Source: Nocardiopsis sp. FR4
GTDB lineage: Bacteria > Actinomycetota > Actinomycetes > Streptosporangiales > Streptosporangiaceae
Direction: 5' to 3'
DNA length: 64,000 nucleotides
NCBI RefSeq assembly: GCF_009830945.1
Contig: NZ_VWVV01000009.1
Location: forward strand, 124,001-188,000
Shown here piece by piece: positions 1 through 32,818 of the stretch (position 1 is its first letter; the number at the start of each line of letters is the position of its first letter). The position numbers were made by a program, and so were the translations under genes. Below the pieces are notes generated by a model. It was given only the letters and a program-made list of their open reading frames with translations. It was not told where the DNA came from and did not search any database.

Positions 1-3000
1 CCGGGCCACTCCCACCCCGTTTCAAGCACCTCGCCCGAGGGGGTGCGCACCGGCTCCTCCGGGCAGACCTGGGTGATGGGCACCGGGAGGGGGCCGGGCC
101 GCCAGTCGGCGAACAGCCCCAGGTAGCCACCCATGGCGGTCAGCCGGGCGGCGTCGAGGAGTTCGAACTCGCTGGCGCGGGCCATCACCGACTCCGTGAC
201 GATGGGCAGCGAGGCGGCGACCAGCGGCAGCACGCCCTCCTCACCCGGCAGGGGTGTGTCCAGCAGCACCAGCCCCGCGGGGGTGCGGCCGCGCCGGTGG
301 AGCTCCTCCGCCACGGCGTGCGCCGCCCAGCCGCCCGAGGACCGTCCCACCAGGACGAGCGGCGCACCGTCCGCGGCGCGGAGCGCCGCGTCGGCCTGCC
401 CGTTGACGAAGACCCCGAGATCGGCGGGCAGCCCCTCCTCGGCGAGGAACCCGGGGGCGGGCAGGGCGTGCACCCGGCGCCGGTCCCGCAGCCCCGCCGC
501 GAACCGGGCGAACTCCTGGGCGCCCGAGGTCATGACCAGGGACGGGAAGCAGACCAGGACCGGTTCCTCCGAGCCCGCGCAGAGCTGGACCGGCTCGACC
601 GGCCACGCCTGCCCGGCGGTGATCACCGCCCGGCCCCGGGACGCGGCCCGGACCATCGCGACCGCTTCCTGGGGCCTGCCGTCCGCGCAGGTGTCGCGGA
701 ACAGCCCCACCAGGGTGTCGGTGGGCCGCTCCGGTCCGGCCTGGTCCGTGCCCCCGCCCATCCGCTCGTCCAGGTGGGCGGCCAGCAGGGAGGGGGTCCG
801 GTGCTCGAACACCACGGACGCGGACAGCCGCAGCCCGGTGGTCTCACGCAGGTGGTTGCGCAGCTCCACCACCGTGAGCGAGTCGAAGCCCGTCTCCAGG
901 AAGTCCTGGTCGGCCTCCACACGCCGGCCCGAGGGGTACCCGAGGATCTCGGCGGCGCGCACCCCGATCAGTTCGCGCAGCAGGGCGCGGCGTTCGTCGC
1001 CGGGTGCGGCGGCCCGCAGCCGCGCGCCCGCCCCGGAGTCGGAGCGCCGTACCCGCTGGGCCCGCACGAGTCCGCGCAGCAGGTGCGGGACGGCTTCGGG
1101 TGAGTCCGCGCGCGCCCGCAGGCCGGCCAGGTCCATCGGGACGGGGAGCAGGTGGGCGCGGTCGACGTCCGCGGCGGCGTCCAGCAGCGCGCACCCCTCG
1201 TCCGCGCCGATGGCCTCCACGCCCCACATCCGGGACATGCGGGAGGTCTCCACCTCCCCCAGGCGTGCGGTCGCCTCGCTCGTGTCGGCCCACCGCCCCC
1301 AGGCCAGCGACTGCGCGGGCAGCCCCAGGGCCCTGCGGTGGTGGGCGAGCGCGTCCAGGAACGCGTTGGCCGCCGCGTACCCGGCCTGGCCCGCCGAGCC
1401 GAGCACACCGGCCGCGGAGGAGAACAGCACGAAGGCGTCCAGGTCCAGGTGGGCGGTGGCCCGGTGCAGGTTCCAGGCGCCGTCGACCTTGGGGGCCAGG
1501 ACCCTGTCCAGGGCCTCGGGGGTGAGCCGGGTGACGGTGGCGTCGTCGACCACGCCCGCGGAGTGGATCACGGCGGTGAGCGGGTGGGCGTCGGGGATCG
1601 TGTCCAGGAGCGCCCGCACGGCCCCGGGATCGGCGACGTCGCAGGCGGCCGGGGTCACGTGTGCGCCCAGGGCGCCGAGTTCGGCCGCGAGCTCGGCGGC
1701 TCCGGGGGCGTCGGCTCCCCGGCGTCCGACCAGAAGCAGCCGGGTGACGCCGTGCCGGACGACCAGGTGGCGGGCGACGAGGGCACCGAGTGTGCCGGCG
1801 CCGCCGGTGACCAGGACGGTGCCGCCGGGGCGCAGCCGGGTGGACATGTCCAGGACGAGCTTGCCGACGTTGCGGCCCTGCTGCATGTGGCGGAAGGCCT
1901 CCACCGCCCGCTCCACGGGGTAGCGGGTGATCCGCGCCGGGGGCCGCTCTCCCCCCAGGAGGGCCAGGACGTCGGTGAGGGCCCGCTGGATGCGTTCGGG
2001 ATCCTCAAGCGGCAGGACGAACGGGATGTAGCGGACGCCGCCGTGGTCGGCCGCCACGCGGGCGGGGTCGCGGAGTTCGTTGCGCCCCAACTCCACGAAG
2101 CGTCCCGTGGGGGCCATCAGCCGCAGTGAGGCGTCGATGGCCGCACCGGTGAGGGAGTTGAGGACGACGTCCACGGGCGGAGCCACCTCGCGGAAGCGCT
2201 CCTCGAAGTCGAGTCGGCGCGAGTGCGCCAGGCGCTCCTCCTCGACGCCCTGCTCGCGCAGGACCTCCCACTTCTCCGGGCTGGCCGTGGCCAGGACCTC
2301 GACGCCCAGGCGCCGGGCCAGGTGCAGGGCAGCCTGGCCCACTCCCCCGGCCGCGGAGTGGACGAGCAGCGTCTCGCCGGATCTGAGTCCGGCCTCCTCC
2401 AGGGCCAGATGGGCGGACAGGTAGACGGCGGGCACTGAGGCCGCCGTGGCGTAGTCCCAGCCGGACGGGACGGGAGCCACGAAGGCGCGCCGGGCGACGG
2501 CGACCGGGCCGAAGGCGCCGGGGAAGACGCCCATCACCCGGTCGCCCGGGGCCAGGTCCGCCACGCCGGAGCCGACCTCCAGGACCAGGCCCGCGCCCTC
2601 GTTGCCGATACCCCCGGGTTCGGGGTACATGCCCACGGTGATCAGGACGTCGCGGAAGTTGACCCCGGCCGCCCGGACCGCGACGCGGACCTCGTCGGGG
2701 GCCAGGGGACGGCGCTGGTCGGGGTCGGGGACGGGGGCGAGCCCGTCGACCCTGCCCGGGTCGCGCACGTCCAGCCTCCAGTCCGTGCGGCGCCGCGGCG
2801 GGCGGACGCCGTCACGGTCCGTCCGGGCCTCGGCCAGGCGGGGGGCGTACAGGCGGCCGTCGCGGACGGCCACCCGCGGCTCCCCGGTCGCGGCGGCCGC
2901 CGCGAGGAGGGCGGTGTCGACCCGGTCGGCGTCCAGGAGGAGGAAGCGTCCCGGGTTCTCGGTCTCGGCGGAGGCCACCAGACCCCACACGGCGGCCCCG

Positions 3001-6000
3001 GGCAGATCCACGTGCCCGGCGGGGTCGTCGGGAAGGCGAACGGCGCCGTCGGTGAGGACCGCGATCCTGGCCCCGGCGAGGCGCTCGTCGTCCACCCACT
3101 CCCGGAGCAGGGCCAGAAGGCGGTGGAGTTCGGCGCGGACGCGGTCGGGTGCCTCCCCGTCGCCGCCGCCCGCGGGGACGACGATCATCTCGGGTGCGGG
3201 CGCGCCCGCCTCCAGCACGGCCTCCAGGGCGGCCGTGTCGGTGTGGCGCCGCAGGCCCTCCGGGCCGGTGGCGCCCACGGCCACCCACGTGTCGGTGCGG
3301 TCCGGGTGCCCGCCGACCGCGGGCGGGGCCAGTTCCGTCCAGTCCTGCTGGAAGAGGGCGGGCGGCTCCGCGGCGGCCGGGGCCTCGCGCACGGTGAGGC
3401 TGTCGATCGACAGCACCGGCGCGCCGTCGGGGCCGGTGTGGATCACCGACCACGTGTCGCGGCCGGTCCGGGTGACGCGGGTCCGCAGCCGGGAGGGCGC
3501 CTCGGTGGTGTACAGGCGCACGCCCCGCCAGGCGAAGGGCATCGGGGAGCGCCGCTCACCACCGCCCGCGAGGTGGTGCAGCAGCAGCGCCTGCAGCCCG
3601 GCGTCGGTCAGCGCGGGGTGGGGGCCCGCAACGCCGGGGGCGTCCTGCGGCGGGGTGTCGGACCCGGCCTCGCTCACCACCCCGGCCCCGTCCTCCCACG
3701 CGGCGCGCAGCCCCCGGAAGGCGGGCCCGTAGTGGTAGCCGAGCGCGGAGAAGCGCGGGTAGGCCCCCTCCACCGGCAGCGGCACCGCGTCCGCGCGCGG
3801 GCCCTCGGCGGGGGGCGGGCCCTGCCCGGTCTCGGGGACGAGTTCGCCCTCCGCGTGCAGGGTCCAGGCCTCCTCTCCTTGGGCGAGGGAGAACACGCGC
3901 ACGGCGCGGGCTCCGCCGCCGTCGGGGGCCTCGACCAGGACCTGGATCCGCGGTCCCGGCTCCCCCTCGCCGGAGGGCACCACCACCGGTGTCCGCAGTG
4001 TGAGGTCGGCGATCTCGGGACACCCGCACTCGCGTCCCGCGTGGAGCAGCAGGTCCACCACGGCGGTGCCGGGCAGCAGGGCACGGTCACCGAGGGCGTG
4101 CTCGGTCAGCCACGGGTGCCGCCCGGGGTCGAGCACGCCGGTGAACACCGTGCGCCCGGTGTCGCCGACGGGGACGCGTGCGCCGAGGAGCGCGTGTCCG
4201 GTGCCCGTGACGCCCAGCGCGGAGGGGTCTCCCGAGGCCCGGAGTTCGGGCAGCCAGTACCGGCGGACCTGGAACGGGTAGGTGGGAAGCTCCACCGGCG
4301 CCCCGCCGGTGGAGCCGAGCACGCGGTCCCAGTCCACGCCGACGCCCTGGCAGTGGGCTCGGGCCAGGGCGGCCGTGAACCGGGAGGGTCCGTCCTCGTC
4401 CCGGCGCAGCGTGCTGATCACCGGCCGGTCGGTACCGGCCGCCTCCAGGGTCTCCTCCATCACCGGCGTCAGCACCTGGTGCGGGCCGACCTCGACGAAC
4501 GCGCCGGAGCGGCGGGACAGGCCCGCGATCACCGGGGCCAGGGCCACCGGGTGGCGCAGGTTGCGGTACCAGTAGTGCGCGTCCAGGCGGGCGCCGTCCA
4601 CGGGCACGAGTTCGGGCACGGACTCCGGCGACCACTCGGGGGCGGTGGCGACCGTGGAGTAGAAGGGGACCTCTCCCGAGCGCGGCCGGATCGGCGCCAG
4701 GTCCTCCAGCAGCCGGTCCCTGACCCGGTCGACCGGGAAGGCGTGGGAGCAGTAGTCCAGGCCGAAGTCGCGCACCCGCACGCCGTCGCGCTCGCAGGCG
4801 GCGACGAACTCGGTGACCGCGTCGCGGTCACCGGCTGCGACGGTGGCGTCCGGGCCGTTCACCCCGGCCACGACGATCTGGCCCTTCCAGGGTGCGATGA
4901 GTTCCGTCAGGCGCTCGGCACCGACCCGGACCGCCGCCATGCCGCCGTGTCCGGCCACGTCGTGGAAGACGCGGCTGCGCAGCGCGCTGACCCGGGCGCC
5001 GTCCTCCAGCGACAGCGCGCCCGCCACGCACGCCGCGGCGACCTCGCCCTGGGAGTGCCCCACCACGGCGGCGGGCTCCACTCCGGCGGCGCGCCACAGC
5101 CGCGCCAGCGAGACCATGACCGCCCACAACGCGGGCTGCACCACGTCCACCCGGGCTCGGGGCCCCGCCACCTCCGGTGCCCCGGGTTCGCCACGCAGCA
5201 CGGCCTCCAGGGACCAGTCGGTGAACGGCGCCAGGGCAGCCCCGCACTCGGCCAGCGAGTCCGCGAACACCCGCGAGGAGGCCATCAGGCCCCGGGCCAT
5301 CCCCGGCCACTGGCCCCCCTGCCCGGGGAACACGAACACGGGGTCCACGGAGCGGCCGGTGCGGCCGACCGTGCCGGTGACCACCCCCTCGGCGGGACGG
5401 CCCTCGGCCAGCGCGCGCAGCCCTTCGACGAGTTCGGCGTGCCCGGCGCCCACGACCGCGGCCCGGTGCGCGAAGGCGGTCCGGGCGGTGGCCAGGGCCC
5501 GGGCCACCCCGGCGGGCGGCGCGGCGCCCCCCTCCAGGTGCGCGCGCAGACGCGCGGCCTGTTCGGCCAGGGCCGGGGCGGTGCGCGCGGAGAGCACCCA
5601 CGGCAGCGGCCCCTCCACCAGCGGCCTGGCGGCAACCTCCCCTCCCCGTGCCGGGTCCGCCTCCGCGGCCCCCTCCGGCGCCCGCTCCTCGGGGGCCTCC
5701 TCCACGATCACGTGCGCGTTGGTCCCGCTGACGCCGAAGGAGGACACCCCGGCCCGGCGGACCCGCTCGCCCCGCTCCCAGCGGCGCGGTTCGGACAGCA
5801 CGCGCAGCCGTCCCGACGACCAGTCCACGTGCGGTGTGGGCTCGTCGGCGTGCAGGGTGCGCGGCAGTGTCCCGTGGCGCAGGGCGAGCACCATCTTCAT
5901 GATCCCGGCCACCCCGGCGGCGGCCTGGGTGTGGCCGACGTTGGACTTCAGCGAGCCCAACCCCACCGTCCCGGCACCCCGGTCCGGCCCGAACACGTCC

Positions 6001-7064
6001 ATCAGCGCCTGGGCCTCGATGGGGTCGCCCAGTGCGGTTCCCGTTCCGTGCGCCTCCACGGCGTCGATGTCGTCCGCGGACAGGCCGGCGTCCGCCAGCG
6101 CCGCGCGCACCACCCGTACCTGCGCCGGACCGCTGGGAGCCGTCAGCCCGTTGGAGGCGCCGTCCTGGTTGACCGCGCTCCCCCGGATCACCGCCAGCAC
6201 CCGGCGGCCGTGGCGTCGGGCGTCGGAGAGCCGTTCCAGGACCACCGCGCCCGCGCCCTCGGAGAACCCCGCGCCGTCCGCCTCCGCGCCGAAGGCCTTG
6301 CAGCGCCCGTCGGCGGCCAGGCCGCCCTGCCGGCCGATCTCGGTGAACAGCGACGGTCCGGCCATCACCGTGGCTCCGCCCGCCAGCGCCAGGGAGCACT
6401 CCCCCGAGCGCAGCGCCCGCACGGCCATGTGCACCGCCACCAGGGAGGAGGAGCAGGCCGTGTCCACGGTCAGGGCCGGGCCCTCCAAGCCCAGCGTGTA
6501 CGCCACCCGCCCGGAGGCGACGCTGGTCGCGGTACCGGTCATCAGGTACCCCTCGGCCTCCTCCGGCACGGGCAGCGACCCGGAGGTCGCGCCCCCGGCG
6601 TAGTCGCGGGCGCTGATCCCCGTGAACACCCCGGTCGCGCTGCCCGCGAGGGAGGAGGGGTCGATCCCCGCGCGTTCGAGCGCCTCCCACGTCACGTGGA
6701 GCATGAGGCGCTGCTGCGGGTCCATGGCCGCCGCCTCGCGCGGCGAGATCCCGAAGAAGTCGGCGTCGAAGTCGGCGGCCCCGTCCAGGAAACCGCCCCA
6801 GCGCCGGGAGCCGAGCCGCTCGGCCAGGGCGTCCAGGTCCCATCCCCGGTCGGTGGGCGGGTCACCGACCGCGTCGGCGGCCTCCTCCAGCAGGCGCCAC
6901 AGCGCCTCGGGGGAGTCCGCTCCCCCGGGCAGGCGGCACCCCATGCCCACGATCGCGATCGGTTCCCGGTCGCGGGAGCGCAGGTCGTCCAGTTCGGCGC
7001 GTGTACGGCGCAGGTCGGCGGTCACCCGTTTGAGGTAGTCGAGGAGTCGGGCGTCTTCCGTCAT
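1..7064 (-). CDS. Type I PKS, terminal module KS-AT-DH-ER-KR-ACP-TE (3' end outside window)
   Basis: This is the last extension module plus thioesterase of the assembly line; at least 2354 codons are open and the gene leaves the window on the left. The start is ATG at 7064, 82 bases after PKS2 stops, and the first ~35 residues look like a docking helix. Domains in order are KS (DTACSSS, Cys204), AT (GHSQGE, Ser671), DH (His989 in [11 protein letters not shown] and Asp1154), ER (NADPH motif [10 protein letters not shown] near 1567), KR (VTGGAGTLG near 1750, VDD motif, Tyr1896), ACP (GFDSL, Ser2062) and TE (GRSSG, Ser2242). The AT specificity motif is YCSH at 771-774, neither the methylmalonyl YASH nor the malonyl HAFH form. 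A full DH-ER-KR set predicts complete beta-carbon reduction followed by TE release. Family and domain order are firm; the extender unit is not. Confidence 0.95.
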
Positions 7065-7146
7065 GGTGTTGGCTCACCGTTTCACGTTGTCCACGGCCCG
7101 GGGCCACGGGTGGAAGGGGGCGGGGGTGGGTCGGAGGCGGTGTGGA

Positions 7147-10100
7147 TCAGTCGCGCAGGGTGTCGTCGAGGAACGCGAACAGCTCCTCCGGGGTCGCGGA
7201 CTCCAGGTCCCGGTCCACGGCTCCCGCGCTGGAGGGGGACAGCCGGTCGAGCAGCCCGCGCAGCCGCCGGGCGACGGCCTCGCGGTCCAGGTCGGAACCC
7301 TCGTGCTCGGCCAGGGCCGCCTCGATGCCGTCGATCCGCGCCATCACGAGCTGCTCGGTGTCGCCGAAGAGCCGTTCCTCCAGGTGTCGGGCGAGCGCCG
7401 CGCACGTGGGGTGGGAGAAGGCCAGCCCGGAGGGCAGCCGCAGCCCGGTGAGGGCGGAGAGCCGGTTGCGCAGCTCGACGGCGGTCACCGAGTCCATGCC
7501 CAGGTCCTTCAGCCCCCGGTCGGCGTCGAGCGCCTCGCCGGAGGGGTAGCCGAGGATGGCGGCCACCTGTTCGCACACGTGGTCGGTGAGGACCCTTCGG
7601 CGTTCGGCGCGTCCCAGCGAGGACAGCCGCGCCTCCAGACCGCCCGCCGCGGCGCCGCCGGGGACGGTGTGCTCGCCGTCGGCGCGGCCGAGGTCGCCGA
7701 CGAACGGGCTCGGCCGGTTGGCGGTGAACGCGGTGCGGAAACGCGGCCAGTCGACCCTGGCGATCGCGAGCGCGGTCAGGTCCCGGTCGAGCGTGCGCTC
7801 CAGCGCAGCGAGGGCGGCCCCGGGTTCCATCATCGGCAGGCCGTGGCGGTTGAGGAGGGCGGCGACCGCCTCGTCCTCGGCCAGGCCCCCGCCCGCCCAG
7901 GATCCCCACGCCACCGACGTGGCGGGCAGCCCGAGCGCGCGGCGGTGGTGCGCCAGCGCCTCACAGAAAGCGTTGCCCGGTGCGTAGTTGCCCTGTCCGG
8001 ACACACCGAGGACGGCGGAGACCGAGGAGAACAGCACGAAGGCCGACAGGTCCGCGTCCCGGGTGAGCTCGTGCAGGTGTACGGCTCCGTCGGCCTTGGC
8101 GCGCAGGGCGCGGGCCACCTGGCCGGGGGTGAGCGCGTCGACCGCGCCGTCGTCCAGGGAGACCGCCGTGTGCACCACTGCGCGGAGCGGGTACTCCTCC
8201 GGCACCGCGGACAGGACCTCGGCGAGGGCCGCCCGGTCGGCGACGTCGCACGCGGCGAGGGTCACCCGGGCCCCCGCCTCGCGCAGTTCGGCCTCCAGCG
8301 CCCCGGCCCCGGGGGAGGCCGAGCCCCGGCGGCTCACCAGGAGCAGGTGGTCGGCGCCGCGCCGGGCGAGCCAGCGCGCGGTGTGCGCGCCCAGCGCGCC
8401 GGTGCCGCCCGTGACCAGGACGGTCCCGGAGGGCTCCCAGCGGCGTACCGCCCGCGTCCGGCCCAGCGGCGCCCGCGTGAGCCGGCGGACGAGGACCTCG
8501 CCGCCGCGGATCGCGACCTGGTCCTCGCCGGGTGCGCGCCCCCCGCTCAGGACCTCCGCCAGCACCCGGCCCGCGTCCTCCGTCGCGGCGGCGGGCAGGT
8601 CGACGAGGCCGCCCCACCGGTCGGAGTGCTCCTGGGCGGCGACCCGGCCGAACCCCCACACGAGGGAGCCCAGAGGGTCGGTCACCCCGGCCCCGGCCGG
8701 AACCGCGCCCCGGGTCAGGCACCACAGGGGTGCGGTGACCCCGGCGTCACCGAGGGCCTGGACGAGCGCGACGGTGCGCGGGTGGCCGGTGGCTTCGGTG
8801 GGCAGGGCGGGCGCCCCGTCCCCGGAGGCACCGGGCAGGGCCAGGGCCGAGAGGACCCCGACGAGGTCCCCGGTCTCCTGGTAGGCCTTGCCGATGAGCG
8901 CGGCGGTCAGGGCGCGGTCGGCGTCCGCGGGCACGTCCACCGTCCGCACGCGGTAGCCGCGCGCCTCCAGGGACGCGGCGCCGTCCGCGACGGCGGGGTC
9001 CGTCGCGCCGGAGCCGAGCACCAGCCAGGTGCCGGGCGGAACCGGGCGGGACGGTCCCGCCTGAGCGGGCGTCCACTCCTCGGTGTAGGACCACTCGTCC
9101 CACGGGTCGGCGCTCCCGGCGGCCGCGGGGAAGGGCGGTGCGGCGCCGGCCCCGTCGCCTCCGCCCGCCCTCCAGAAGTACTGGTGCTGGAAGGCGTAGG
9201 TGGGCAGGTCGACCACGCCGCGGCCGCCGCCGTACACCCGCTCCCAGTCCGGGGCCACGCCGTGCACGTGGGCCTCGGCCAGTGAGGTCAGGAACCGGCG
9301 CGGTCCGCCCTCGTCCCGGCGCAGGGTGCCCAGGACCACGGTGTCGCGCACCTGGGACTCCTCGCAGGTCTCCTGGAGCGCGGAGTTGAGCACGGGGTGC
9401 GGTCCGACCTCGACGAACGTGTCGTAGCCGTCGCGCAGCAGGGCCCGGGCGGCGTCGGCGAACGCGACCGGGCCGGCGAGGTTGCGGTACCAGTAGGCGG
9501 CGTCCGTCTCCGCGGACTCCAGCCTGTCGCCGGTGAGGGTGGAGTACAAGGGCACGTCGGGCCGGAGCGGCGTGATCCCGGCCAGCGCCGTGGTGACGCG
9601 CGCGCGCAGGCGCTCCACGTGGGGGGTGTGCGAGGCGTAGTCCACCGCGACCAGCCGGGCGTGGACGCCCTCGGCCTCGTACCGCGCGACCAGGGTGCGC
9701 ACCGCCTCGGGTTCGCCCGCCACGACCGTGGCCGACGGGCCGTTGACGGCCGCCACGTGGACGTCGCCGCCCAGTGCGGCGAGGCGCTCGCGGACCCGGC
9801 CGGCGGGCTGGGCCACTGACGCCATCGCCCCGGTGCCCGACAGTTCCAGGAGCGCCCGGCTGCGCAGCGCCACGACCTTCGCGGCGTCCTCCAGGGACAG
9901 CGCCCCGGCCACGCAGGCGGCGGCGATCTCACCCTGGGAGTGGCCGACCACGGCCGCCGGGCGCACCCCGTGGGCGCGCCACAGCTCGGCGAGGGAGACC
10001 ATCACCGCCCACAGCGCGGGCTGGACCACGTCCACCCGCTCCAGGGCGCCCGCCTCCCGCCCCCGCAGCACCGAGGTCAGCGACCAGTCCACATGGGGGG

Positions 10101-11904
10101 CCAGCGCCCGCTCGCACTCAGCCACACGCCCGGCGAAGACGGGCGAGGCCTCCAGGAGTTCGGCCGCCATGCCCTCCCACTGGCCTCCCTGGCCGGGGAA
10201 GACGAACACGGGCTGGCGCTCGCCCCTGGCCACGCCGAGGACCGTCCGGGGGTGGGGCCGCGCCCGGGCCAGGGCGTCCAGGGCCTCGAGGTACCCCTCC
10301 CGGCCGTCGGCGACGACGGCGGCCCGGTGCTCCAGCGCGGAACGGGTGGTGGCCAGCGACCAGCCGACGTCGGCGGGGTCGGCCCCGGGCCGGTCCCGCA
10401 GGTGGTCGCGCAGCCGCGCCGCCTGCCCGCGCAGGGCGGCCTCACCGCGCGCCGAGAGCGTCCAGGGCCGGGGGCCGACCGCGAGCGCGGGCTCCGTGAC
10501 CCGCGCGGGACCCTCCTCGTGCGCGTGGTCGGCCTCGGGCGCCTGCTCGACGATGACGTGGGCGTTGGTGCCGCTCATCCCGAAGGAGGACACTGCGGCC
10601 CGGCGGGGACGGTCGGTCCGCGGCCAGGGGCGCTCCTCGGTGAGCAGTCGGACCGCCCCCACCGACCAGTCCACGTGCGGTGTGGGCTCGTCGGCGTGCA
10701 GGGTGCGCGGCAGCGCTCCGTGTTGGAGGGCCAGCACCAGCTTGATGAGTCCCGCGACCCCGGCCGCGGCCTGGGAGTGGCCGACGTTGGACTTGAGCGA
10801 GCCCAGCCACAGGGGCCGGTCGGCCGGGCGCTCGCGGCCGTAGGCGGTCAGCAGCGCCTGCGCCTCGATCGGGTCGCCCAGGGTGGTGCCGGTGCCGTGC
10901 GCCTCGACCAGGTCGACGTCGCCCGGTTCGAGTCCGGCGTCGGCCAGGGCACCGCGGATCACCCGCACCTGGGAGGGCCCGTTGGGCGCGGTGAGGCCGT
11001 TGGAGGCGCCGTCCTGGTTGACGGCGCCGCCGCGGACCACGGCCAGGACCCGGTGCCCGTTGCGGCGGGCGTCGGAGAGGCGTTCCAGGACGACCATGCC
11101 CACGCCCTCGGCGAAGCCCGCGCCGTCGGCACCCGCGCCGAAGGCCTTGCAGCGCCCGTCCGGAGCCAGTCCCCGCAGGTGGGTGAACTCGGTGAGCGGG
11201 CCCGGGGAGGACATGACCGTCGCCCCGCCCGCCAGCGCGAGCGAGCACTCGCCCGCGCGCAGGGCGCGCACGGCCAGGTGCACGGCCACGAGTGAGGAGG
11301 AGCAGGCGGTGTCCACGGTCATGGCGGGGCCGGTCAGCCCGAGGGTGTAGGAGATCCGGCCGGAGGCGACGCTGAGCGCCGTCCCGGTCATCGCGAGCCC
11401 GTCCTCGGGCGCCTGGGACAGCCGGGGACCGTACTCGGGGGTGAGCGTGCCGACGTAGACGCCGGTGTCGGACCCGGAGAGCGAGGACGGGGCGATCCCG
11501 GAGCGCTCCAGGGACTCCCAGGCCACCTCCAGCAGGAGGCGCTGCTGCGGGTCCATGGCCTCGGCCTCGCGGGGGGAGATCCCGAAGGCCTCGGGGTCGA
11601 ACTCGCCCGCGGCGTCGAGGAAGGACCCCTGGGACATCGCGGAGCGGGGCTCCCCGCCGCCCTCCCCCAGGAGCGCGGCGAGGTCCCAGCCTCGGTCGCC
11701 GGGGAGGGGGCCCACGGCCTCGCGGCCGTGGGTGAGCAGGTCCCACAGGTCCTCGGGGCTGCGGACCCCGCCCGGCAGGCGGCAGCCCATCCCCACGATC
11801 GCGATCGGTTCCCGGAAGGCGGCCCGGCCGACCGCCTCCTTCAGACGTGCGTTCTCCTTCAGCGCGGACCTGAGTGCCGCGACCAGTCGGTCATCGGTAG
11901 TCAT
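7147..11904 (-). CDS. Type I PKS, KS-AT-KR-ACP extension module
   Basis: The second PKS protein is a single module of 1585 residues. I choose ATG 11904, preceded by an AGGAG ribosome site; it overlaps the end of PKS1 by 14 bases, so the two are probably translationally coupled. A GTG at 11922 is an alternative. An N-terminal docking helix ([19 protein letters not shown]) precedes KS (DTACSSS, Cys201), AT (GHSQGE, Ser656; YASH at 756-759, the methylmalonyl signature), KR (VTGGTGALG near 1162, LDD motif of B-type KRs, catalytic Tyr1307) and ACP (GMDSV, Ser1472). There is no DH or ER, so the module should leave a beta-hydroxyl. A normal inactive linker region occupies the space between AT and KR. 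Confidence 0.95.
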
Positions 11905-14900
11905 CTGCCGTCTCCTGTCCACGTGGGGGTGCGTGGGCCTCGCCCTGGAGGGCGAGGTTCAACAGGTCCTCGACCCCCATCGCATCGATGCTGCTCTCCT
12001 GCGCTCCGGCGTCGTCGGCGGGCGCGTCGTCCGCTGTGTGCCTCCGGGGGGTCTCCTCCGGGAGGTCGTCGGTCACGAGGTCGGCCAACAGGAGCGCCAG
12101 CGCTCGCGGGGTCGGGTGGTCGAAGACGGCGGTGGCCGGAACCCGGACGCCGACCGCGGCGCTGAGCCGGTTGCGCAGCTCCACGCCGGTGAGCGAGTCC
12201 AGCCCCAGCTCCGTGAAGGGCCGTTCCGCGTCCACCCGGGAGGGTCCGGCGTCCGGCCCGTGACCCAGGACCACGGCGGTGTGCGCGCGGACCTCGTGGA
12301 GCAGGGCACGCTCCCGCTCGGCCCCGGACATCCCGGCGAACCGGTCGGCGGCGGGGTCCGCGGGCCCTGCGGCCGCCGGGGTCTCCCCGCCGGCCCGGAC
12401 CGTAGGCCCGGCCAGGCCGCGCAGTACGGCGGCGCCGGTGCCGGCCGCGGTGTCCAGGCGGGCGGGGACACTGTGGACCATGTCCCACAGCAGCGCGGTG
12501 TCCAGGTGGCGCAGTGCCTCCTCGGCGGGCATCGGCAGCAGGCCACCGCGGCCGAGCGCGCCGAGGTCGGCCTCGTCCAGGTGCCCGGTCATGCCGCTGG
12601 GCCCGGCCCACAGCCCCCAGGACAACGAGGTGGCGGGCAGCCCCTGCTCGCGGCGGTGGTGGGCCAGGGCGTCGCAGAAGACGTTGGCCGCCGCGTAGTT
12701 GGCCTGCCCCGGGTTGCCCAGGACCCCGACGGCCGAGGAGAAGAGCACGAACGCCCCCAGGTCGGCGTCGGCGGTCAGCTCGTGCAGGTTCCAGGCGATG
12801 TCGGCCTTGGGACGCAGCACCCGGTCGACCTGTTCGGCGGTGAGCGAGGTGAGGAGGGCGTCGTCGAGGACGCCCGCGGCGTGCACGACGGCCCCCAGGG
12901 GGCGGTCCTCGGGGATCCGGCGCAGGAGCCGTTCCAGGTCGCCGCGGCCGGCGGCGTCGCAGGCCGCCACCTCCACCCGGGCGCCCAGGGCCTCCAGTTC
13001 CGCTGTGCGCGCGGCCTGGTCCGCGGTGTCCGGACCGCCCCGGCTGGTGAGCAGCAGGTGGCGCACCCCGTACCCGGTGACCAGGTGGCGCGCCACCCTG
13101 TGGCCGAGGGTCCCGGTGCCGCCCGTGACCAGCACGGTGCGTTCCTGCGGGAACGGCGCCGGGACGGTCAGGACGAGCTTGCCGACGGTCTCACCGCGCT
13201 GGAGGGCCCGCAGGGCGGTTCCCGCGTCGCGCAGATCGTGGACGGTGGTGGGTAGGGACCGAATCGCGCCGCTGGCGAAGAGCTCCATGAGGCGCCTGAG
13301 CATCTGCCCGATCCGCTTCGGGTCCACGTCGGGAAGGTTGAACGCCTGATAGTCGCGGCCGGGGTGGGACTCGGTGAGGTCCTCCTGGGAGCGGATGTCG
13401 GTCTTGCCCATCTCCACGAACCGTCCGCCCGGACCCTCCCCGTCCTGGGGTGAGCGCAGCAGACGTAGCGATGCGTCCACGAACTCGCCGGTCAACGAGT
13501 TGAGGACCACGTCCATGCCCCGCCCGCCGTTGGCGGCGCGAAGACGCTCCTCGAACTCCAGGGTCCGGGAGGAGGCCAGCCGTTCCTCGGGGAGCCCGTA
13601 CTCCGCCAGTCCGGCCCACTTGTGGGGGCTCGCGGTTCCGAACACGCGCGCGCCCATGTGCTGGGCGAGCTGGACGGCGGCCGTTCCCACGCCGCCCGCG
13701 GCCGCGTGCACCAGGACGCTGTCGCCCGGACGCACCGCGGCCAGGTCCACCAACCCGTGGTACGCGCTCAGGAAGGCGACGGGGACCGCCGCCGCCTGCT
13801 CGAAGGTCCACCCCTCGGGGATACGGGCGAGCCGGTCGGCGTGGGCGACGGCGACCGGCCCGAACGCGCCGTCGAACATGCCGGTGACGCGGTCGCCCGG
13901 AGCCAGGTCGTGGACGGCGGAGCCCGTCTCCAGGACGATGCCCGCTCCCTCGATGCCCATGCCGCGTTCGCCCTCGACCAGGCCGAGGGCGACCACCACG
14001 TCGCGGAAGTTCACCCCCGCAGCCCGCACGGCGACCCGCACCTCCCCGGGGTCCAGGGGAGCGGCGGCCCCGGGCGCGGGCAGCAGCTCTAGATTTTCCA
14101 GCGACCCCGGGGCCCGGGTGTCCATCCGCCACAGCGGCCCGGGCGGAGTGAGTTCCCGGGCCCCCGCCTCGGTCAGGCGGGGTACCAGGACCGTGCCCGA
14201 GCGCAGTGCCAGCTGCGGTTCACCCAGCTCGACCGCTCCGGGGAGTACCCGGTGGGAGTCCTCGGAGCCGTCGGAGTCCACGAGCACGAGGCGGTCGGGG
14301 TGCTCCCGCTGCGCAGCGCGCAACAGCCCCCAGACCGGGGCGGCCCCCAGACCAGCGACCCCGTCCTCCCGGCCGGTGGCCACGGCGCGCCAGGTCACCA
14401 CGACCAACCGCGCGTGGGCGTACCGTTCGTCGGTCAGCCAGGAGCGGACGATGCGCAGCGCCGCGTCGAGTCCGGCGCGGACCGCCTCGGGGACCGGCGT
14501 GCCCTCCGTGTAGACCGCGGTGGGGGGCAGCTCGGTGTAGACCGTGGACGGTACGGGCTCGTCCGGGCCGAGGGAGGCCAGGTCGGGCAGGTCGGTGGGC
14601 ACGTCCGGCACGGGGTCGGGGACGGGCGCCGCCTCCCACACCAGTTCGTAGAGCCCGGGCAGTTCGGCGGGGTCGCGTTCGGGCAGGGACTGCCGGTCCA
14701 GGGGGCGCATTCCCAGTTCGTCCACGGTCACGACGGGGGCGCCGTGCTCGTCGGCGGCCAGGATGCGGTAGCGCCCCTCGCCCAGCTCGGTGATCCGCGC
14801 CCGCAGGGTTCGGGGGGCGGCGCCCCCCGTCGGCGGCGTGACGCGCACACCCGACCAGGCGAAGGGCACCAGGAGTCCCTGCCGCTCCGCGCCGTGCGCG

Positions 14901-17900
14901 AGCAGCGCGTGCAGTACGGAGTCCACCAGGGCCGGGTGCGGGCCGTGGAAGGGACCGCCCGTGGCCGCGCCGTCGGGGAGGACCACCTCGGCCAGGAGGT
15001 CCCGGTCACGCCGCCAGACCGAGCGCAGGCCGCGGAACACCGGACCGTAGGTGTAGCCGCGCCCCTCCAGGAGGGCGTAGTCGGCCCCGGTGTCCACGGG
15101 TTCGGCGTCCTCGGGGGGCCAGGTCGGCGCCTGGTGCCGCGGGGCCGACGGATCGTCGGGGGCGAGGGTGCCCGAGGCGTGCCGTGTCCAGGCGGCGTCT
15201 CCGCCGCCCTCGGGGCGGGCGTGGAGGTGCAGTTCGCGAACGCCGTCGCCGTCGGCGGGGCCCACGGTGACCTGGAGCGACACGCCCCGGTCCGCGGTCA
15301 GCACCAGCGGGGCCTCCAGGACTAAATCGCGTATCGAGGGGGAACCGACGCGCGCGGCGGCGTGGGCGGCCGCCTCCACCATGGCCGTCCCGGGAACGAG
15401 GGTCCGCTCCCACACCCGGTGGTCGCTGACCCAGGGGTGGTCGGCCGGACTGATCCGTCCGCTGAACACGGTGCGCCCGTCAGCCAGCTCCAGTCCGCCG
15501 TCGAGCAGCGGAGCCGGAGCGAGGGCGGGGGCGGACATCCAGTGGCGGCGGCGCCGGAAGGGGAGCTCGGGCACGACGACGGGAGCGCCCTCGTCCTCGA
15601 CGCCCTCCAGCACGACGTGCGCGTTCGTGCCGCTGATACCGAAGGAGGAGACCGCCGCCCGCCGGGGTCGCCCGGTCTCCGGCCACGGTTCGGCCTCGCG
15701 GAGCAGTCGCACACCGCTGCCCGCCCAGTCGACCTTGTCCGTGGGCTCGTCGGCGTGCAGTGTCCTGGGCAGCTTCCCGTGCCGCAGCGCCTCCACCATC
15801 TTGATCACCCCGGCCACACCGGCGGCGGCCTGGGCGTGGCCGATGTTGGACTTGAGCGAGCCCAGCCGCAGCTCGTCCTCGCCCTGGCGCGCGTTGCCGT
15901 AGACGGAGATGAGGGCCCGGGCCTCGATGGGGTCGCCCAGGCGGGTGCCGGTGCCGTGCGCCTCCACCGCGTCGACGTCGTGCGAGGTGAGCCGGGCCGA
16001 GGCCAGCGCCTGCCGGATCACCCGTTCCTGGGCCTCTCGGCTGGGAGCGGTCAGGCCGTTGCTCGCACCGTCGGAGTTGACCGCGCTTCCCCTGAGCAGG
16101 GCCAGCACGGGCCGTCCGGCGCGGCGGGCCTGGGAGAGGCGCTCCAGCACCAGCATGCCCGCGCCCTCCGCCCAGGCCGTGCCGTCGGCCCCGGCTCCGA
16201 AGGCCTTGCAGCGCCCGTCCGGGGACAGGCCGCGCTGGGCGGAGAACTCCAGGAACATGCCGGGGGTGGCCATCACCGTGGCTCCGCCCGCCAGCGCCAT
16301 GGAGCACTCGCCCCGCCGGACGGCCTCCGCGGCCTGGTGCAGGGCCACCAGGGAGGAGGAGCACGCGGTGTCGACGGTCATCGCGGGGCCGCGTAGACCG
16401 AACACGTAGGCGATGCGCCCCGAGGCCACGCTCAGGGTGCTGCCGGTCAGGCGGTATCCGCCGTCGGTGCCCGCGCCCGGGTCCGCCAGGCGGGGGCCGT
16501 ACTCGGTGGGCATGGCGCCCACGAAAACCCCCACCTCCTGGTCGCGCAGGGCCGCCGGGTCCAGTCCCGCCCGCCGGATCGCCTCCCACGACGTCTCCAG
16601 GAGGAGCCGCTGCTGGGGGTCCATCGCGTCGGCCTCGCGGGGGCTGATTCCGAAGAAGTCTGCGTCGAACAGGTCGGCGTCGTGGAGGAACCCGCCCGAG
16701 CGCGTGTAGGTGCGGCCGGGCTTGCCGGGCTCGGGGTCGTAGATGCCGTCCAGGTCCCAGCCGCGGTTGTCGGGGAAGGCGCCGATGGCGTCGGCGCCGT
16801 CCTCGACCAGCCGCCACAGGGCCTCGGGCGAGTCGGCGCCGCCCGGCAGACGGCAGGCCATCGCGGTGATGGCCACCGGGTCGTCCTCCGGTGCGGCCGG
16901 GGCGGCGGGCGTGGCCGGCGCGGCCGGGACGGGGGCGCTCCGCGGGGCGTCCTCGCCCAGTTCACCGGCGAGGAACTCGGCCAGCGCGGCGGGCGTGGGC
17001 ACCTCGAACAGGACGGTGTCCTCCAGCCGGACCCCGGTCTCCTCCTCCACCAGGTCGGCGAGTTCGAGCAGCATGATCGAGTCGAAGCCCAGGTCGCGGA
17101 AGGCCCTCTGCTCGTCGGCCTCGGGCAGGGAGTCCTGTTCCAGGATCCGGGCGCTCAGGGCGCGGACCAGTTCCCGGGCGCCGACGCCCCCGGGGGCGTC
17201 GGCGGCGACCCGCGCCGGAGCCGCGGGCACGGGCGCGGAGAGGGGTGCCGGCGCGGTCTCGGGCCAGAAGCGCCTGCGCTGGAAGGCGTAGGTCGGCAGG
17301 TCCACGCGGCGCGCGTTCGTGTGCCGGAACAGGGCGCCCCAGTCCACGTCCACTCCGGCGGTGAACGCCTGGGCCGCCGACGTGAGCAGCTGCGCCTGGT
17401 CGCCGCGGTCGCGGCGGAGCGTCTCCAGTACCGTGCCTCGGACCCCGGCCGCCTCCAGGGTGCGCTCGATCCCGAAGGAGAGCACCGGGTGCGGGCCGAC
17501 CTCGACGAAGGTGGTGTGTCCGGCGGCGACGGCCGCCTCCGTCGCCTCGGCGAAGCGGACCGTGCCGCTCAGGTTCCGGTACCAGTACCGGGCGTCCAGG
17601 ACGGGGCCGTCCTCCGTCAACCGCTCACCGGTCAGCGTGGAGAAGAACGGCACCCGCGGGGAGCGCGGTGCGAGCGGGGCCAGCTGGTCGAGCAGTTCCC
17701 CGCGGATACGTTCCACGTGCGCGGAGTGGGAGGCGTAGTCCACGTCGATCAGGGCGCCGTGGACGCCGTTGTCGAGGCAGTGCTCCACCGCGCGGCGCAC
17801 CGCCTGGGCGCCGCCGGAGACCACGACCGAGTCCGGTCCGTTGACGGCCGCCAGGTACAGGTCCTCGGCCTCGGCGACGTACTCCCGCGCCCGCTCCCTG

Positions 17901-19909
17901 GTCAGGCCGAGCGAGGCCATGCTCCCGGTCCCCGCCAGGGAGGTCAGGGCCCGGCTGCGCAGGGCCACCACGCGCGCGGCGTCCTTCAGGGACAGCGCCC
18001 CGGCCACGCAGGCGGCGGCGATCTCGCCCTGGGAGTGACCGATCACGGCGGCGGGTTCCACACCCAGCTCCGACCACACCCCGGCCAGGGAGACCATCAC
18101 GGCCCACAGGACCGGTTGGACCACGTCGACCCGGGCGCCGGGCCCGGCATAGGGCGGTGCCCCGGGATCGCCCCGCAGCACCTGGACGAGCGACCAGTCC
18201 ACGTGGGGGTCCAGGGCCCGCTCGCACTCCAGCAGTCGTCGGGTGAACACCTGGGCCAGGGGTCCGGCTCCGCCCAGGAGGTCGCGGGCCATCCCCGCCC
18301 ACTGTCCGCCCTGGCCCGGGAAGACCAGGACCGGCCCGCTCCGGTCCCGGGCGTCCTCGGGCACGGCCGCGGGGCGTATCGACTCCAGCTCCCGGGTTCC
18401 CCCGCCGTTCGGGGCGAGTATCACCGCGCGGTGCTCGAACACCGCGCGGGTCGTGGCCAGGGACAGTCCGACGTCCTCGGCGCGCAGGCCCGGGCGTGCG
18501 GAGACGAAGGCGTGCAGGGCCGCGGCCTGCGCGCGCAGCGCGGCCTCCGAACGCGCGGAGATCACCCAGGGCACCGGGTCCAGGGCACCCTCCGCCGCGC
18601 TGGGCTCGGTCCGCTCCGGCCTGGGAGGCGGGGGCGGCCCGAGCACGAGGTGGCAGTTGGTCCCGCCCATCCCGAAGGAGGAGACACCCGCCAGCGGAGC
18701 GTCGGCGGGCCAGGGCTCGCGCTCGGTCTGCGGGGACAGCCCCAGCCGCTCCAGGTCGATGCCGGGGTTGGGCGAGGCGAAGTTGCGGGTCGGCGGCAAC
18801 TGCCCGTGCGACAGGCTCAGCACGACCTTGAGCAGTCCGGCCACCCCAGCGGCGCCCTCCAGGTGGCCGATGTTGGTCTTCACCGAACCCACGCGCAGGG
18901 GCTCGCGCCCGCCCCGGGAGAACACCTCCCCCAGAGCGGCGGCCTCGACCGGGTCCCCCGCGGGCGTACCGGTCCCGTGCAGCTCCACGTAGCCCACGTC
19001 GGCCGGTTCCGCGCCCGCCTGGCGGTAGGCCTCACGCAGGACCTTCACCTGCCCCTCGACCTCGGGCCGGGCCAGGTAGGAGGTCTGTCCGGAGTTGTTC
19101 ACCGCCCCGCCGCGCAGGACGGCGTGGACGCGGTCGCCGTCCGACAGCGCCCGGTCCAGGAGCTTGAGCACCAGTACCGCGCCGCCCTCACCGCGCACGT
19201 AGCCGTTGGCACGGGAGTCCAGCGTGTAGCACCGGCCGTCGGGTGACAGGCCGCCGAACTCGCTGACGCTGTCGGTGCTCTCGGGTACCAGGATCAGGTT
19301 CACGCCGCCCGCGAGCGCGGTGTCGGACTCGCCCCGGCGCAGGCTCTCCGCGGCCAGTTGCACGCTGACCAGCGAGGACGACTGCCCCGCGTCGACGGTC
19401 AGACTCGGTCCGCCCAGACCGAGCGCGTAGGAGACCCGGTTGGCGATCATGCCCCGGTGGGTGCCGGTCAGCGTGTGATGGGTGATGGCCGAGCGGCCGC
19501 CGGCCCGGAGCAGGAGCGCGTAGTCGGAGGCGATGGCGCCGGTGAACACGCCGGTGCGGGTGCCCCGCAGGTCGGAGGGCGCGATCCTGGCGTTCTCGGC
19601 GGCCTCCCAGCTGAGTTCGAGCATGAGGCGCTGCTGGGGGTCCATGGCCAGCGCCTCACGCGGAGAGATCCCGAAGAACGCTGCGTCGAAGTCCTCGGCC
19701 CGCTCCAGGTAACCGCCCCAGCGCCCGTCACGGTCCGGAGTCGGCCCGCCGAGGCGTTCGGGGGGCGGGGTGATCGCCTCGCGGCCCTCGCAGAGCAGGC
19801 GCCAGAAGGCATCGGGGTTCGGCGCCCCGGGAAGACGGCAGGAGACTCCCACCACGGCGATGGGAGCGGCCTCTACCCCGCGGTCACCGTACGCATGGTC
19901 ACTGCTCAA
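11891..19909 (-). CDS. Type I PKS, KSQ-AT-ACP loading module plus AT-less KS-DH-ER-KR-ACP module
   Basis: This 2672-residue protein begins the assembly line. The start is TTG at 19909 with a strong GGAGG seven bases upstream. The first KS has Gln176 in place of the active Cys (VDAGQSSS), the hallmark of decarboxylating KSQ loading domains. It is followed by AT (GHSQGE, Ser626; YASH 725-728, methylmalonyl type) and ACP (GFDSI, Ser944), so a propionyl starter is expected. The second module has an intact KS (DTACSSS, Cys1183) ending near residue 1432, then jumps through a short linker ([11 protein letters not shown], normally found after an AT) to DH (His1497, Asp1663), ER ([10 protein letters not shown] near 2065), KR (VTGGTGTLG near 2261, LDD, Tyr2405) and ACP (GLDSL, Ser2572). 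No AT lies between KS and DH. The reading frame is intact throughout. Confidence 0.95.
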
Positions 19910-20427: not shown

Positions 20428-21693
20428 TCAGTCCCCGTGTCGCGCGCGGACCTCGGCTACGTACTGCATCGCCAGCTCCGGATCGAGGAGCCAGCTGCTG
20501 TAGTCCGGCGGATAGTCCCATCCCTGGATCCACCGGTCACCCACCTCCGGATACGCGGCGGCCGCGTCGACGAGGTCGTAGAAGTACGGTGGCAGGTCTC
20601 CCGCATCCCACAGTGTGGAATTCATCTCAGCCCAGAGTTGATTGTGCAGACCGAATTCCCAGAAACGGTCGAAGGTCCTGACCAGGAATCCCTCATCGAA
20701 CGCACCGTCACCATGCTCGATGATGCTCTCCAGGTACGCCTTCGCACAACGTGTGGAGTTGTTCCAGCTCTGGCCCACGTACGGGTCCATCGTGACGACC
20801 ACGTCGGCCATACCGAGCACGCGCCCGCCCGAGGGAAGTACGCCGACGGGGTTGCGGACCTGGGGGGTGAGCTCCTCCACCAGGGTGCTGTTGCGGCCGT
20901 TGGTGAGGACCGCGTCCTTGACGCGCTCGAAGTAGTCCGGAGCGTACTGGCGGAGCAGGTCCTTCATCCGCCGCAGCTGCTCCTCGGGGCCCGGACGGTC
21001 GGGCCAGGCGTCCATCGGCCCGCCCCGCTTGTCCACGAGGAGCAGGTTGTGGCAGGGCCCCTCCTGCGTGAGGATGGGGAGGAACATGATGTTGCCCGCG
21101 TCGGCCGCGGAGGCCGCCCACCCGATGTTCTCGTCACCCTCCTTTTCGGGCCAGACGTCGTAGACCTGTGCCTGGGCGATGGACCGGGGCCTGGCCCCGC
21201 TGAACCGGCTCTCGTCGTAGTCGAAGAGCTGACCGAGTTCACCGTGCCCGACGGCCACGATGATCAACTCGAACATCCGGGAGAAGTAGTCCAGGTCGGT
21301 CACGGTCACGCCGTGGATGACGACCTTGCCGCCGCGGTCCTCGAAGTACTCCAGCCAGTCGGCCATCTTCACCCGCCGGTCGACCGACACGACGTAGTCG
21401 TTGTTCAGGCCGGTCCTGCCCTTGAACGTCCTGACGGGCTGGTCCCCCGAGGGATACAGATGGACTCGCTGTTCACGGATCTGGGGTGAGAGAGCGCTCC
21501 AGAGGTCGAGGTCGTGCTGGCGCTCGTACTCCAGGGCCGTCGGGAAGGTGAACTGGGCGACGGACGCCTTGCCCGTACGAATCTCCAGCGAGGACTGCCC
21601 CGTGATCACCGTGACGTCGTAACCATGGGTCAGGAGCCCGTGAGCCAGGTGCAGGCCGGCGTGACCCGCGCCGACGATAAGGATCTTGCGCAT
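20428..21693 (-). CDS. Styrene/indole monooxygenase-like FAD flavoprotein (StyA family)
   Basis: The 421-residue protein starts with a Rossmann FAD motif (ILIVGAGHAGLHLA, residues 4-17) and matches the layout of StyA-type epoxidases: a short beta strand, then YDVTVITG, and a C-terminal aromatic-rich helical part. StyA enzymes are two-component monooxygenases that use FADH2 supplied by a separate reductase to epoxidise alkenes. No reductase gene is visible in this window. The ATG at 21693 is preceded by AGGAAAG. The gene lies 60 bases after cvnD on the same strand, so it is probably the fifth gene of the conservon operon. Family assignment is good; the substrate is unknown, and a role in tailoring the nearby polyketide is only possible. 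Confidence 0.8.
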   Translation of the reverse strand: MRKILIVGAGHAGLHLAHGLLTHGYDVTVITGQSSLEIRTGKASVAQFTFPTALEYERQHDLDLWSALSPQIREQRVHLYPSGDQPVRTFKGRTGLNNDYVVSVDRRVKMADWLEYFEDRGGKVVIHGVTVTDLDYFSRMFELIIVAVGHGELGQLFDYDESRFSGARPRSIAQAQVYDVWPEKEGDENIGWAASAADAGNIMFLPILTQEGPCHNLLLVDKRGGPMDAWPDRPGPEEQLRRMKDLLRQYAPDYFERVKDAVLTNGRNSTLVEELTPQVRNPVGVLPSGGRVLGMADVVVTMDPYVGQSWNNSTRCAKAYLESIIEHGDGAFDEGFLVRTFDRFWEFGLHNQLWAEMNSTLWDAGDLPPYFYDLVDAAAAYPEVGDRWIQGWDYPPDYSSWLLDPELAMQYVAEVRARHGD

Positions 21694-21753: not shown

Positions 21754-22359
21754 TCAGGCGACGGGCTCGCTGGCGCGGTTGTGCTCCAACGCGTACCGCA
21801 GCAGCGTCTTGAGCACCTCACCCCCGGACAACCGGCTCCGGGCGTCGAAGTCGATGATGGGGACCTCCGGACTGACCTCCAGCGCCTCGCGGACCTGCTC
21901 GGCCGTGTAGTCGAGCTGGCCCTCGAACTTGTTCAGCGCCACGATGTAGGGGATCCGCTTGGTCGTCTCGAAGTAGTCGACGGCGTCGAAGGAGTCCGCG
22001 AGCCTGCGGCAGTCGACCACGACGACGGCACCCACGGCGCCCCGGACCAGATCGTCCCACATGAACCAGAACCGCGCCTGGCCCGGCGTACCGAACATGT
22101 ACATGACCAGCTCGTCGTCGATGGTGATGCGACCGAAGTCCATCGCGACGGTGGTCGTCGTCTTGTCGGGTGTGATCGAGGTGTCGTCATGACCGATGCT
22201 GGCCTCGGTCATGATCGCCTCGGTCGTGACAGGCGGGATCTCCGACACCGAGCTCACCAAGGTCGTCTTGCCGGCGCCGAAGCCGCCGGCGATGACGATC
22301 TTGCTCGACATCTTCTTGCGATTGGACCGCTTGTCACTGGAAAAGTCGTTCGAGACCAC
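21754..22359 (-). CDS. cvnD: Conservon ATP/GTP-binding protein (CvnD)
   Basis: This 201-residue Ras-like GTPase has the P-loop GGFGAGKTT near residues 25-33, a FGTPGQ segment matching the G3 switch and NKFEG matching the G4 NKxD-type motif. Conservon CvnD proteins are switch components that work with a roadblock protein, a DUF742 protein and a sensor-kinase-like protein in a membrane-associated complex resembling eukaryotic G-protein signalling. The start overlaps the end of cvnC by 26 bases. A second possible start lies at the internal Met of KKMSSKIV, 16 residues in, which is nearer the usual start of the family. Confidence 0.92.
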   Translation of the reverse strand: MVSNDFSSDKRSNRKKMSSKIVIAGGFGAGKTTLVSSVSEIPPVTTEAIMTEASIGHDDTSITPDKTTTTVAMDFGRITIDDELVMYMFGTPGQARFWFMWDDLVRGAVGAVVVVDCRRLADSFDAVDYFETTKRIPYIVALNKFEGQLDYTAEQVREALEVSPEVPIIDFDARSRLSGGEVLKTLLRYALEHNRASEPVA

Positions 22360-22693
22360 GAAGAGCCCTCTCCAGAACCTGGTTTTCCGATGGACTGCTG
22401 CCGGTGATGGTCGGGTGGATGTACACCAGGTCCTGTTCGGCCAGGTCGCTGACCAGGACCTGGGTGACGCCCAGGGGGATGTTCAACTCGGCCGAGACCT
22501 CGGCCAGCGACCGGGTCTCCCGGCAAAGCTTGTAGATACTGATCGACTCCGGCATGAGGGTGCTGGGAGGTTCCTGCCCTGGCTCGGAGGTCGAGACCAG
22601 GGTCTGCACCATCAGCGGATGCCGGGACCGCGTCCGCCCACCGGTGAAGGTGAACGGGCGGACACGGTTACTCCTTCTCCTGCGGAAGCTCAT
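22334..22693 (-). CDS. cvnC: DUF742 conservon protein (CvnC)
   Basis: The 119-residue protein begins with a basic patch and RPFTFTGGRT, continues with LMPESISIYKLC and a winged-helix-like LAEVSAELNIPLGVTQVLVSDL, then VYIHP. These are standard features of DUF742 proteins, the third member of actinomycete conservons. An upstream GGGAGGAGAGG supports the ATG at 22693. It lies between cvnB and cvnD and overlaps cvnD. Its molecular role is not well defined in the family; it probably helps couple the roadblock protein to the GTPase. Confidence 0.92.
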   Translation of the reverse strand: MSFRRRRSNRVRPFTFTGGRTRSRHPLMVQTLVSTSEPGQEPPSTLMPESISIYKLCRETRSLAEVSAELNIPLGVTQVLVSDLAEQDLVYIHPTITGSSPSENQVLERALRGLERLFQ

Positions 22694-22736
22694 AGCCGAG
22701 GCAACCTCTCCTCCCGAACGGTTTCGGTCACCGTCG

Positions 22737-23162: not shown

Positions 23163-23268
23163 CGCTGTGCCTTACCTGCCTGGGCGGAGTGTCGTGTTCG
23201 CTGGGGGATGCGGGGCACGCCGGGAGGGGGAGTGCCCGAAACCGAGGTCGTCGTGTGCGGTGCGGAGG

Positions 23269-30942: not shown

Positions 30943-30949
30943 GGCGGGC

Positions 30950-32757: not shown

Positions 32758-32793
32758 GGGGCTCCTTGGGGGGTGGGACAGGAGGACCATGTT

Positions 32794-32818
32794 TCTATTA
32801 GGAAAGTTTCCTAATAGA
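32794..32818. promoter_or_regulatory. Operator-like perfect palindrome before the ABC permease gene
   Basis: Two 12-base arms, TCTATTAGGAAA and its exact complement, flank a single G at 32806. The site is 36 bases before the permease start, where a repressor would block transcription. The arrangement resembles sugar or amino-sugar regulator sites of actinomycetes, and its 10-base core AAACTTTCCT recurs before the rpiR gene at 39409-39418. Confidence 0.75.

Follow-up and report, generated by a model that had tools for sequence, protein, structure and literature searches.

Modular polyketide synthases (PKSs) that make six-ring lactones are represented by DEBS and the DEBS1-TE triketide lactone synthases, cis-AT systems that, in the available excerpts of their descriptions, combine methylmalonyl-type ATs with an in-line thioesterase (TE). 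AT-less modules are a feature of the trans-AT PKS family, and the haliamide PKS, according to the accessible part of its description, holds such modules among AT-bearing ones, with malonate assigned to them from a standalone AT (PMC6274090). In the genus Nocardiopsis, the nocapyrone cluster ncpA-D of N. alba (PMC4110758) is a type I PKS locus for six-ring oxygen heterocycles, and a review lists, in the passage available, "3,6,7-tri-epi-invictolide and its analog" (Sato 2011) from Nocardiopsis tangguensis (PMC7699178). We analyzed a 64,000-nucleotide stretch of the 6.1-Mb genome of Nocardiopsis sp. FR4 (G000:C7:124001-188000, on a 241-kb contig; hereafter the window, whose coordinates are used below), in which three minus-strand type I PKS genes, P1, P2 and P3, form a complete assembly line by domain and motif reading. 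It resembles the DEBS enzymes in being a modular cis-AT line with an in-line TE, but it starts with a KSQ loading unit and its module 1 lacks an AT of its own. Unlike the haliamide system, it has no standalone AT beside the cluster, and its AT-less module is common to the genus. Taken together, the domains and flanks indicate that P1-P3 are probably a complete three-gene PKS for an invictolide-type delta-lactone.

Domains were called with Pfam profiles and catalytic motifs were read from the translated sequences; the active-site motifs of the KR, DH, ACP and TE domains (GRSSGG in the TE) were found in the line. An earlier note on the window had proposed a propionyl start, a KR-only module 2 with a YASH-type AT and a fully reducing module 3 followed by a TE. 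The KSQ and the YASH motif of the loading AT are in line with the first proposal, and the KSQ-type replacement of Cys by Gln was present in 31 of 31 P1 genes. The domain order of the other two modules was found as described, with the addition that AT3 carries YCSH. The TE is split by the window edge and entire in the genome sequence, where P3 is followed by a gene for an HrpA-type helicase with DUF3418. No additional PKS gene was detected beyond either end of the line when the flanks were examined on both sides, so the further modules or PKS genes upstream or downstream that would have changed the proposed product did not appear; this contig holds 4 of the 17 ketosynthase-family matches and 3 of the 7 AT matches of the genome. 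Because the domains were verified and the flanks contained no further module, a colinear delta-lactone is predicted. The domain order fits 5-hydroxy-2,4,6-trimethylnonanoate, provided that module 1 uses the extender we infer for it, in agreement with the 2,4,6-substituted 5-hydroxynonanoic acid and lactone suggested before.

In the proposed pathway, the KSQ-AT would load methylmalonyl and decarboxylate it to propionyl. Module 1 would take methylmalonyl from the loading AT, which is part of P1 as well, add it and reduce it fully, module 2 would add methylmalonyl and leave a hydroxyl group, and module 3 would add methylmalonyl (or its ethyl analogue), again with full reduction. The TE would then close 3,5-dimethyl-6-(1-methylbutyl)-delta-lactone, which has the constitution of invictolide, and the flavin monooxygenase encoded beside the line would probably act on the lactone or on an intermediate. 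The identification of the all-methylmalonyl case with the invictolide skeleton is supported by a 2026 fire-ant review, whose available text gives invictolide the same structure. Since tri-epi-invictolide has been reported from Nocardiopsis, the genus is already known to make the predicted skeleton, and the locus is the obvious candidate for its biosynthesis. No gene cluster for an invictolide-type lactone was found in the literature searched, a search that did not extend to MIBiG and subscription literature. The compound class is already known from the genus; the novelty appears to lie in the assembly line and in its module without an AT. Nocapyrone was considered as the product and rejected: nocapyrone R, as far as its description is accessible, carries a methoxy group on the ring carbon flanked by the two methyl-substituted ones (PMC4113818), and the present line would reduce this carbon. 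This judgement was made by structure, not by comparison with the ncp sequence.

Module 1 had also been described as fully reducing, and its DH, ER and KR are indeed present; the description needs correction in that the module has no AT, so its extender must be borrowed. P1 gave a single AT match, in the loading module, and KS1 ends at about residue 1434 while DH1 begins at about residue 1467. The loading module and modules 2 and 3 display the cis-AT domain pattern, on large polypeptides with a terminal TE, and module 1 departs from the rule that every extension module has its own AT. The line shares an AT-less module with the trans-AT PKSs, in which a discrete AT near the cluster accompanies AT-less modules, but here modules 2 and 3 keep their ATs and an inventory of the ATs in the genome placed no free-standing AT gene next to the cluster. 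Elsewhere the genome has an AT beside a KS at C13 (FabD-like) and another at C19. The alkyl branch introduced by module 1 thus depends on a borrowed AT, and the simplest source of its extender would be the loading AT within P1.

The main reason for thinking the loading AT able to serve ACP1 comes from three relatives, G002, G006 and G037 (L151-L156), in which KS1 is missing and P1 is a fused KSQ-AT-DH-ER-KR-ACP protein. There the KSQ-AT contains the only AT on the polypeptide and the only detected ACP stands after DH-ER-KR, so this AT must serve the post-KR ACP. In the alignment of AT-less P1 proteins (28 rows, one gapped), the KR1 Tyr, the DH1 His/Asp and the ACP1 Ser were each present in 27 of 27 rows, and KS1 Cys/His/His was intact in the 25 of 25 rows with letters. 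In the fused proteins, the KSQ is unable to extend, which leaves no beta-carbon for processing, and the KR has decayed: its Tyr is gone in all three, replaced by S, H and Q. Retention of the KR Tyr with KS1 and its loss without KS1 suggest that selection preserves the module 1 KR only where KS1 exists and, as judged from the conserved catalytic residues, module 1 is in use. The strains with a fused P1 are predicted to make a lactone one unit shorter. The module 2 AT of G002 and G037 reads GHSI/VGEL, which we take to be a malonyl-like form.

A search with the KS1-DH1 junction over 40 genomes of the genus, with classes assigned by reading the search output, found the AT-less junction in 36 of them (31 in one piece, 3 in two adjoining pieces and 2 cut by a contig end). 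In G022 the junction was divided between contigs and the class is undecided, and the three genomes with a fused P1 account for the rest; a module 1 AT was seen in none of the 40. Among 200 genomes of the family, where 11 of the matching ones belong to the genus, there was no whole-junction match outside the genus among the matches listed. The partial matches that extended farthest, from query position 11-13 in G103, G174 and G081, were rejected as AT-less junctions, since an AT lies between KS and DH in all three. In a named collection of 79 loci, the best whole-junction match was L025; the match to L032 ran to residue 167, and both loci are from Nocardiopsis. Matches starting at residue 1-2 with 41-42% identity were obtained for L075 and L086, so the AT-less junction may also occur in other genera. 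A 10-kb piece of L025 (Nocardiopsis sp. CNT312) is identical to G026, which is placed in the same genus as the window.

Stereochemistry was assigned by hand from established rules and the descriptors of invictolide. KR2 has LDD and YAP, as does DEBS KR1, and we take it to be of the B2 type, which would give 5R,6R. The ER3 Tyr aligns with that of the SpnB motif GMYPG and ER1 has Val at this position; by the usual ER rule, these residues would set 3S and 7R, respectively. The predicted lactone is 3,5-syn, whereas invictolide is described as 1,3-anti, so the two would be epimeric at C3 and, by the invictolide descriptors, at C6 as well, but not at C7. By these rules and descriptors, three of the four centres (C3, C5 and C6) fit 3,6,7-tri-epi-invictolide and C7 does not.

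The locus was compared in 32 genomes of the genus, namely that of the window, 20 more and a further 11 (two of these over only 20 kb). Wherever it was fully covered, the gene order was kept: conservon-like genes, a gene for a styrene/indole-monooxygenase-like FAD enzyme (SMOA), P1, P2, P3 and the helicase. The same cluster at the same place in the members examined argues that the line is not a chance arrangement. The helicase was not found in the covered stretch of G031, and in G031:C1 (L110/L111) another KS-AT gene starts about 9 kb downstream of P3. Eleven genomes have the reduced type of the window, 3 the reduced type with a fused P1 and 17 a less-reduced type; G005 is undecided because its P2 is cut. 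In the less-reduced type P2 lacks the KR and P3 lacks the ER (G032 was assigned from P3 alone, and G007 without a detected DH in P3). Such a line is predicted to leave a 5-keto-2-enoyl chain, which would close as a 2-pyrone.

To relate the two chemotypes to the history of the locus, changes of the less-reduced label were counted on trees and compared with 500 shuffles; the rows differ between trees owing to length filters. Each P3 tree required a single change (KSm3, 28 rows; DHm3, 29; KRm3, 32; TE, 30), a count as low as in none of the 500 shuffles. The remaining PKS trees required 3 (KSm2), 4 (KSm1), 5 (DHm1 and KRm1) and 6 (KSQ) changes. For the helicase (27 rows) there were 9 changes, 7 of them forced by well-supported branches, against a shuffled mean of 9.1, and 297 of 500 shuffles were as low. 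Counts for the other flanking genes were 8 for the GTPase, 9 for the roadblock protein, 7 for the HATPase (35 of 500 as low) and 8 for a lactonase-family protein (PF10282), which does not co-segregate with the chemotype. Near-identity of the proteins leaves the GTPase and roadblock trees with poor resolution. Inclusion of the conservon in the exchanged unit was considered and is not supported by these flank trees, with the HATPase giving a weak signal.

Ten pairs of genomes were also compared by identity, six mismatched and four matched in chemotype. In the mismatched pairs G027/G001, G006/G035, G025/G028 and G010/G013, the flanks were nearly the same (helicase 96-98%, roadblock 100%, GTPase 98-100%), whereas KSm3 was 61-64%, TE 42-45% and SMOA 72-82% identical. 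The other two mismatched pairs gave 96% for the helicase and 42% for the TE (G034/G001) and 93% and 46% (G017/G032, partial). In the matched pairs G027/G034, G008/G012, G011/G016 and G000/G033, the TE was 82-94% and SMOA 88-97% identical. From the trees and the mismatched pairs, strains seem to have traded the final part of the line, which determines the product, more than once while the locus kept its chromosomal position. As a tentative reading, the locus would exist across the genus as two exchangeable alleles, for a saturated delta-lactone and a predicted 2-pyrone. Recombination would swap P2, P3 and the TE along with an oxygenase adapted to them, and at the conserved start of the line a single loading AT would serve its own ACP as well as the AT-less module.

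SMOA bears on the identity of the final product. It was present in 31 of the 31 genomes whose SMOA region was covered, its nearest PDB chains include styrene monooxygenases, and on its tree the chemotype label changes 3 times (30 rows, a count reached by none of 500 shuffles), so that it tracks the chemotype more tightly than KSQ although it lies farther from P3. We read this as co-adaptation, with the oxygenase acting on the product, and because SMOA co-segregates with the PKS type, the pathway may end in something other than the unmodified lactone. That the lactone is only an intermediate, which SMOA would hydroxylate, epoxidise or otherwise oxidise, is a possibility we take seriously without calling it probable, and it is compatible with P1-P3 making the invictolide-type lactone. 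However, the saturated lactone has no alkene, the name of the reported compound implies no extra oxygen, and no flavin-reductase partner stands among the annotated neighbours.

Use of ethylmalonyl by module 3, and perhaps by others, to give 3-ethyl lactones or mixtures seems unlikely. It would be in line with the YCSH motif of AT3, in place of the plain YASH of AT2 and the loading AT, and is conceivable because the crotonyl-CoA carboxylase/reductase (Ccr) gene beside the PKS, the only one in the genome above the cut-off, could supply ethylmalonyl-CoA. Yet AT3 retains RVDVVQP and GHSQGE, its closest PDB sequences are DEBS ATs, and the corresponding motif is YASH or YTSH in relatives with this chemotype. 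Moreover, in 13 of the 32 genomes, reduced-type ones among them, no Ccr-like match was obtained in the covered stretch, which in some ends before the place of Ccr. Rather improbable is the loading of module 1 in trans by a fatty-acid malonyl transferase, which would omit the C-1' methyl and yield 6-butyl-3,5-dimethyl-delta-lactone (C11). The ATs on C13 and C19 could be sources, malonyl-CoA:ACP transacylase can, according to the accessible part of the report, rescue an AT-null DEBS module 6 (PMC6164871), and haliamide offers a precedent. Against this, P1 itself carries the loading AT, which serves a downstream ACP in the fused relatives, no discrete AT adjoins the cluster, and the genus product listed in the review passage is named as invictolide-type, hence with a 1-methylbutyl chain. 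Least likely is a non-colinear outcome (module 1 skipped or iterated, or a free hydroxy acid released by the TE), for which the absent AT1 is a plausible cause of skipping but which conflicts with the genus-wide retention of the module 1 catalytic residues and the loss of the KR Tyr where KS1 is gone.

Several observations weigh against P1-P3 as the source of an invictolide-type lactone. DH1 has Glu and DH3 has Asp at the Gly of HxxxGxxxxP, AT3 carries YCSH with a Ccr gene nearby, and a plain lactone as end product leaves SMOA without an obvious role. At C7 the Val of ER1 gives 7R by rule, whereas tri-epi-invictolide, which shares the genus and the predicted constitution, needs the opposite relative configuration. 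Finally, N. tangguensis was not recognised among the genus genomes compared.

Features of the PKS locus (window coordinates)
Feature	Position	Strand	Basis or remark
P1: KSQ-AT-ACP loading module and AT-less module 1 (KS-DH-ER-KR-ACP)	11891..19909	-	Pfam, sequence; start TTG or nearby codon
KSQ, Gln in place of catalytic Cys	18620..19852	-	VDAGQSSS
Loading AT with YASH; putative supplier of ACP-L and ACP1	17345..18328	-	Pfam, motif, same polypeptide, fused relatives
Loading ACP	16970..17167	-	PP-binding
KS1, active-site Cys kept	15608..16882	-	Pfam, motif
KS1-DH1 junction, ~30 aa at usual AT position; retains post-AT-linker-like LPFRRRRHW	15512..15607	-	Sequence; genus-conserved
DH1	14684..15511	-	Pfam, alignment
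ER1, Val at position of SpnB ER Tyr	13169..14080	-	Pfam, alignment
KR1	12605..13138	-	Pfam, alignment
ACP1	12065..12301	-	Pfam, motif
P2: module 2, KS-AT(YASH)-KR(LDD, YAP)-ACP	7147..11904	-	Pfam, motifs
P3: module 3, KS-AT(YCSH)-DH-ER(Tyr)-KR-ACP-TE	1..7064 (gene end 189 bases left of window)	-	Pfam, motifs
TE domain, part inside window	1..605	-	PF00975; GRSSGG
SMOA	20428..21693	-	PF17885; PDB relatives; tree
Conservon-like genes (GTPase, roadblock, HATPase)	21754..26457	-	Mark fixed address of locus
Ccr	26530..27960	-	TIGR01751, 529.7 bits vs cut-off 378.55

To the right of P1 lie SMOA, the conservon-like set and Ccr. An ABC transporter set including a family-5 solute-binding protein (28887-32790, -) adjoins the locus, and a BTAD/AAA SARP-type regulator (37342-39075, -) is only a candidate member of the cluster. 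Two tRNA genes of equal score (36551-36623 and 36799-36871, -) stand between a septum-formation-like gene and this regulator; a search of a plasmid collection with window positions 30000-46000 gave only short matches near them. An Rfam match to ASpks (RF01782, 72.2 bits, 10792-10866, +) runs antisense within the KS-coding part of P2 and probably reflects conservation of the PKS coding sequence, not an RNA. Left of the window, the seven-bladed lactonase-family protein (G000:C7:115308-116393, -) comes after the helicase in most of the genomes compared, and a pair encoding a haem-oxygenase-like protein and a histidine-specific methyltransferase (G000:C7:117635-119529, +) adjoins the helicase, as it does in G028.

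With this locus, specific candidate genes are at hand for a bacterial compound diastereomeric with a pheromone component of fire-ant queens. The line is also a natural, genus-wide case of a module without an AT inside a cis-AT line, such as engineers have had to build. In our view, the interchangeable endings are the more interesting part: with different PKS endings beside helicases that are 96-98% identical, the lactone/pyrone switch and the oxygenase are open to allele replacement in near relatives. The exchangeable-allele pattern, if true, would be that expected for a diversifying small-molecule signal.

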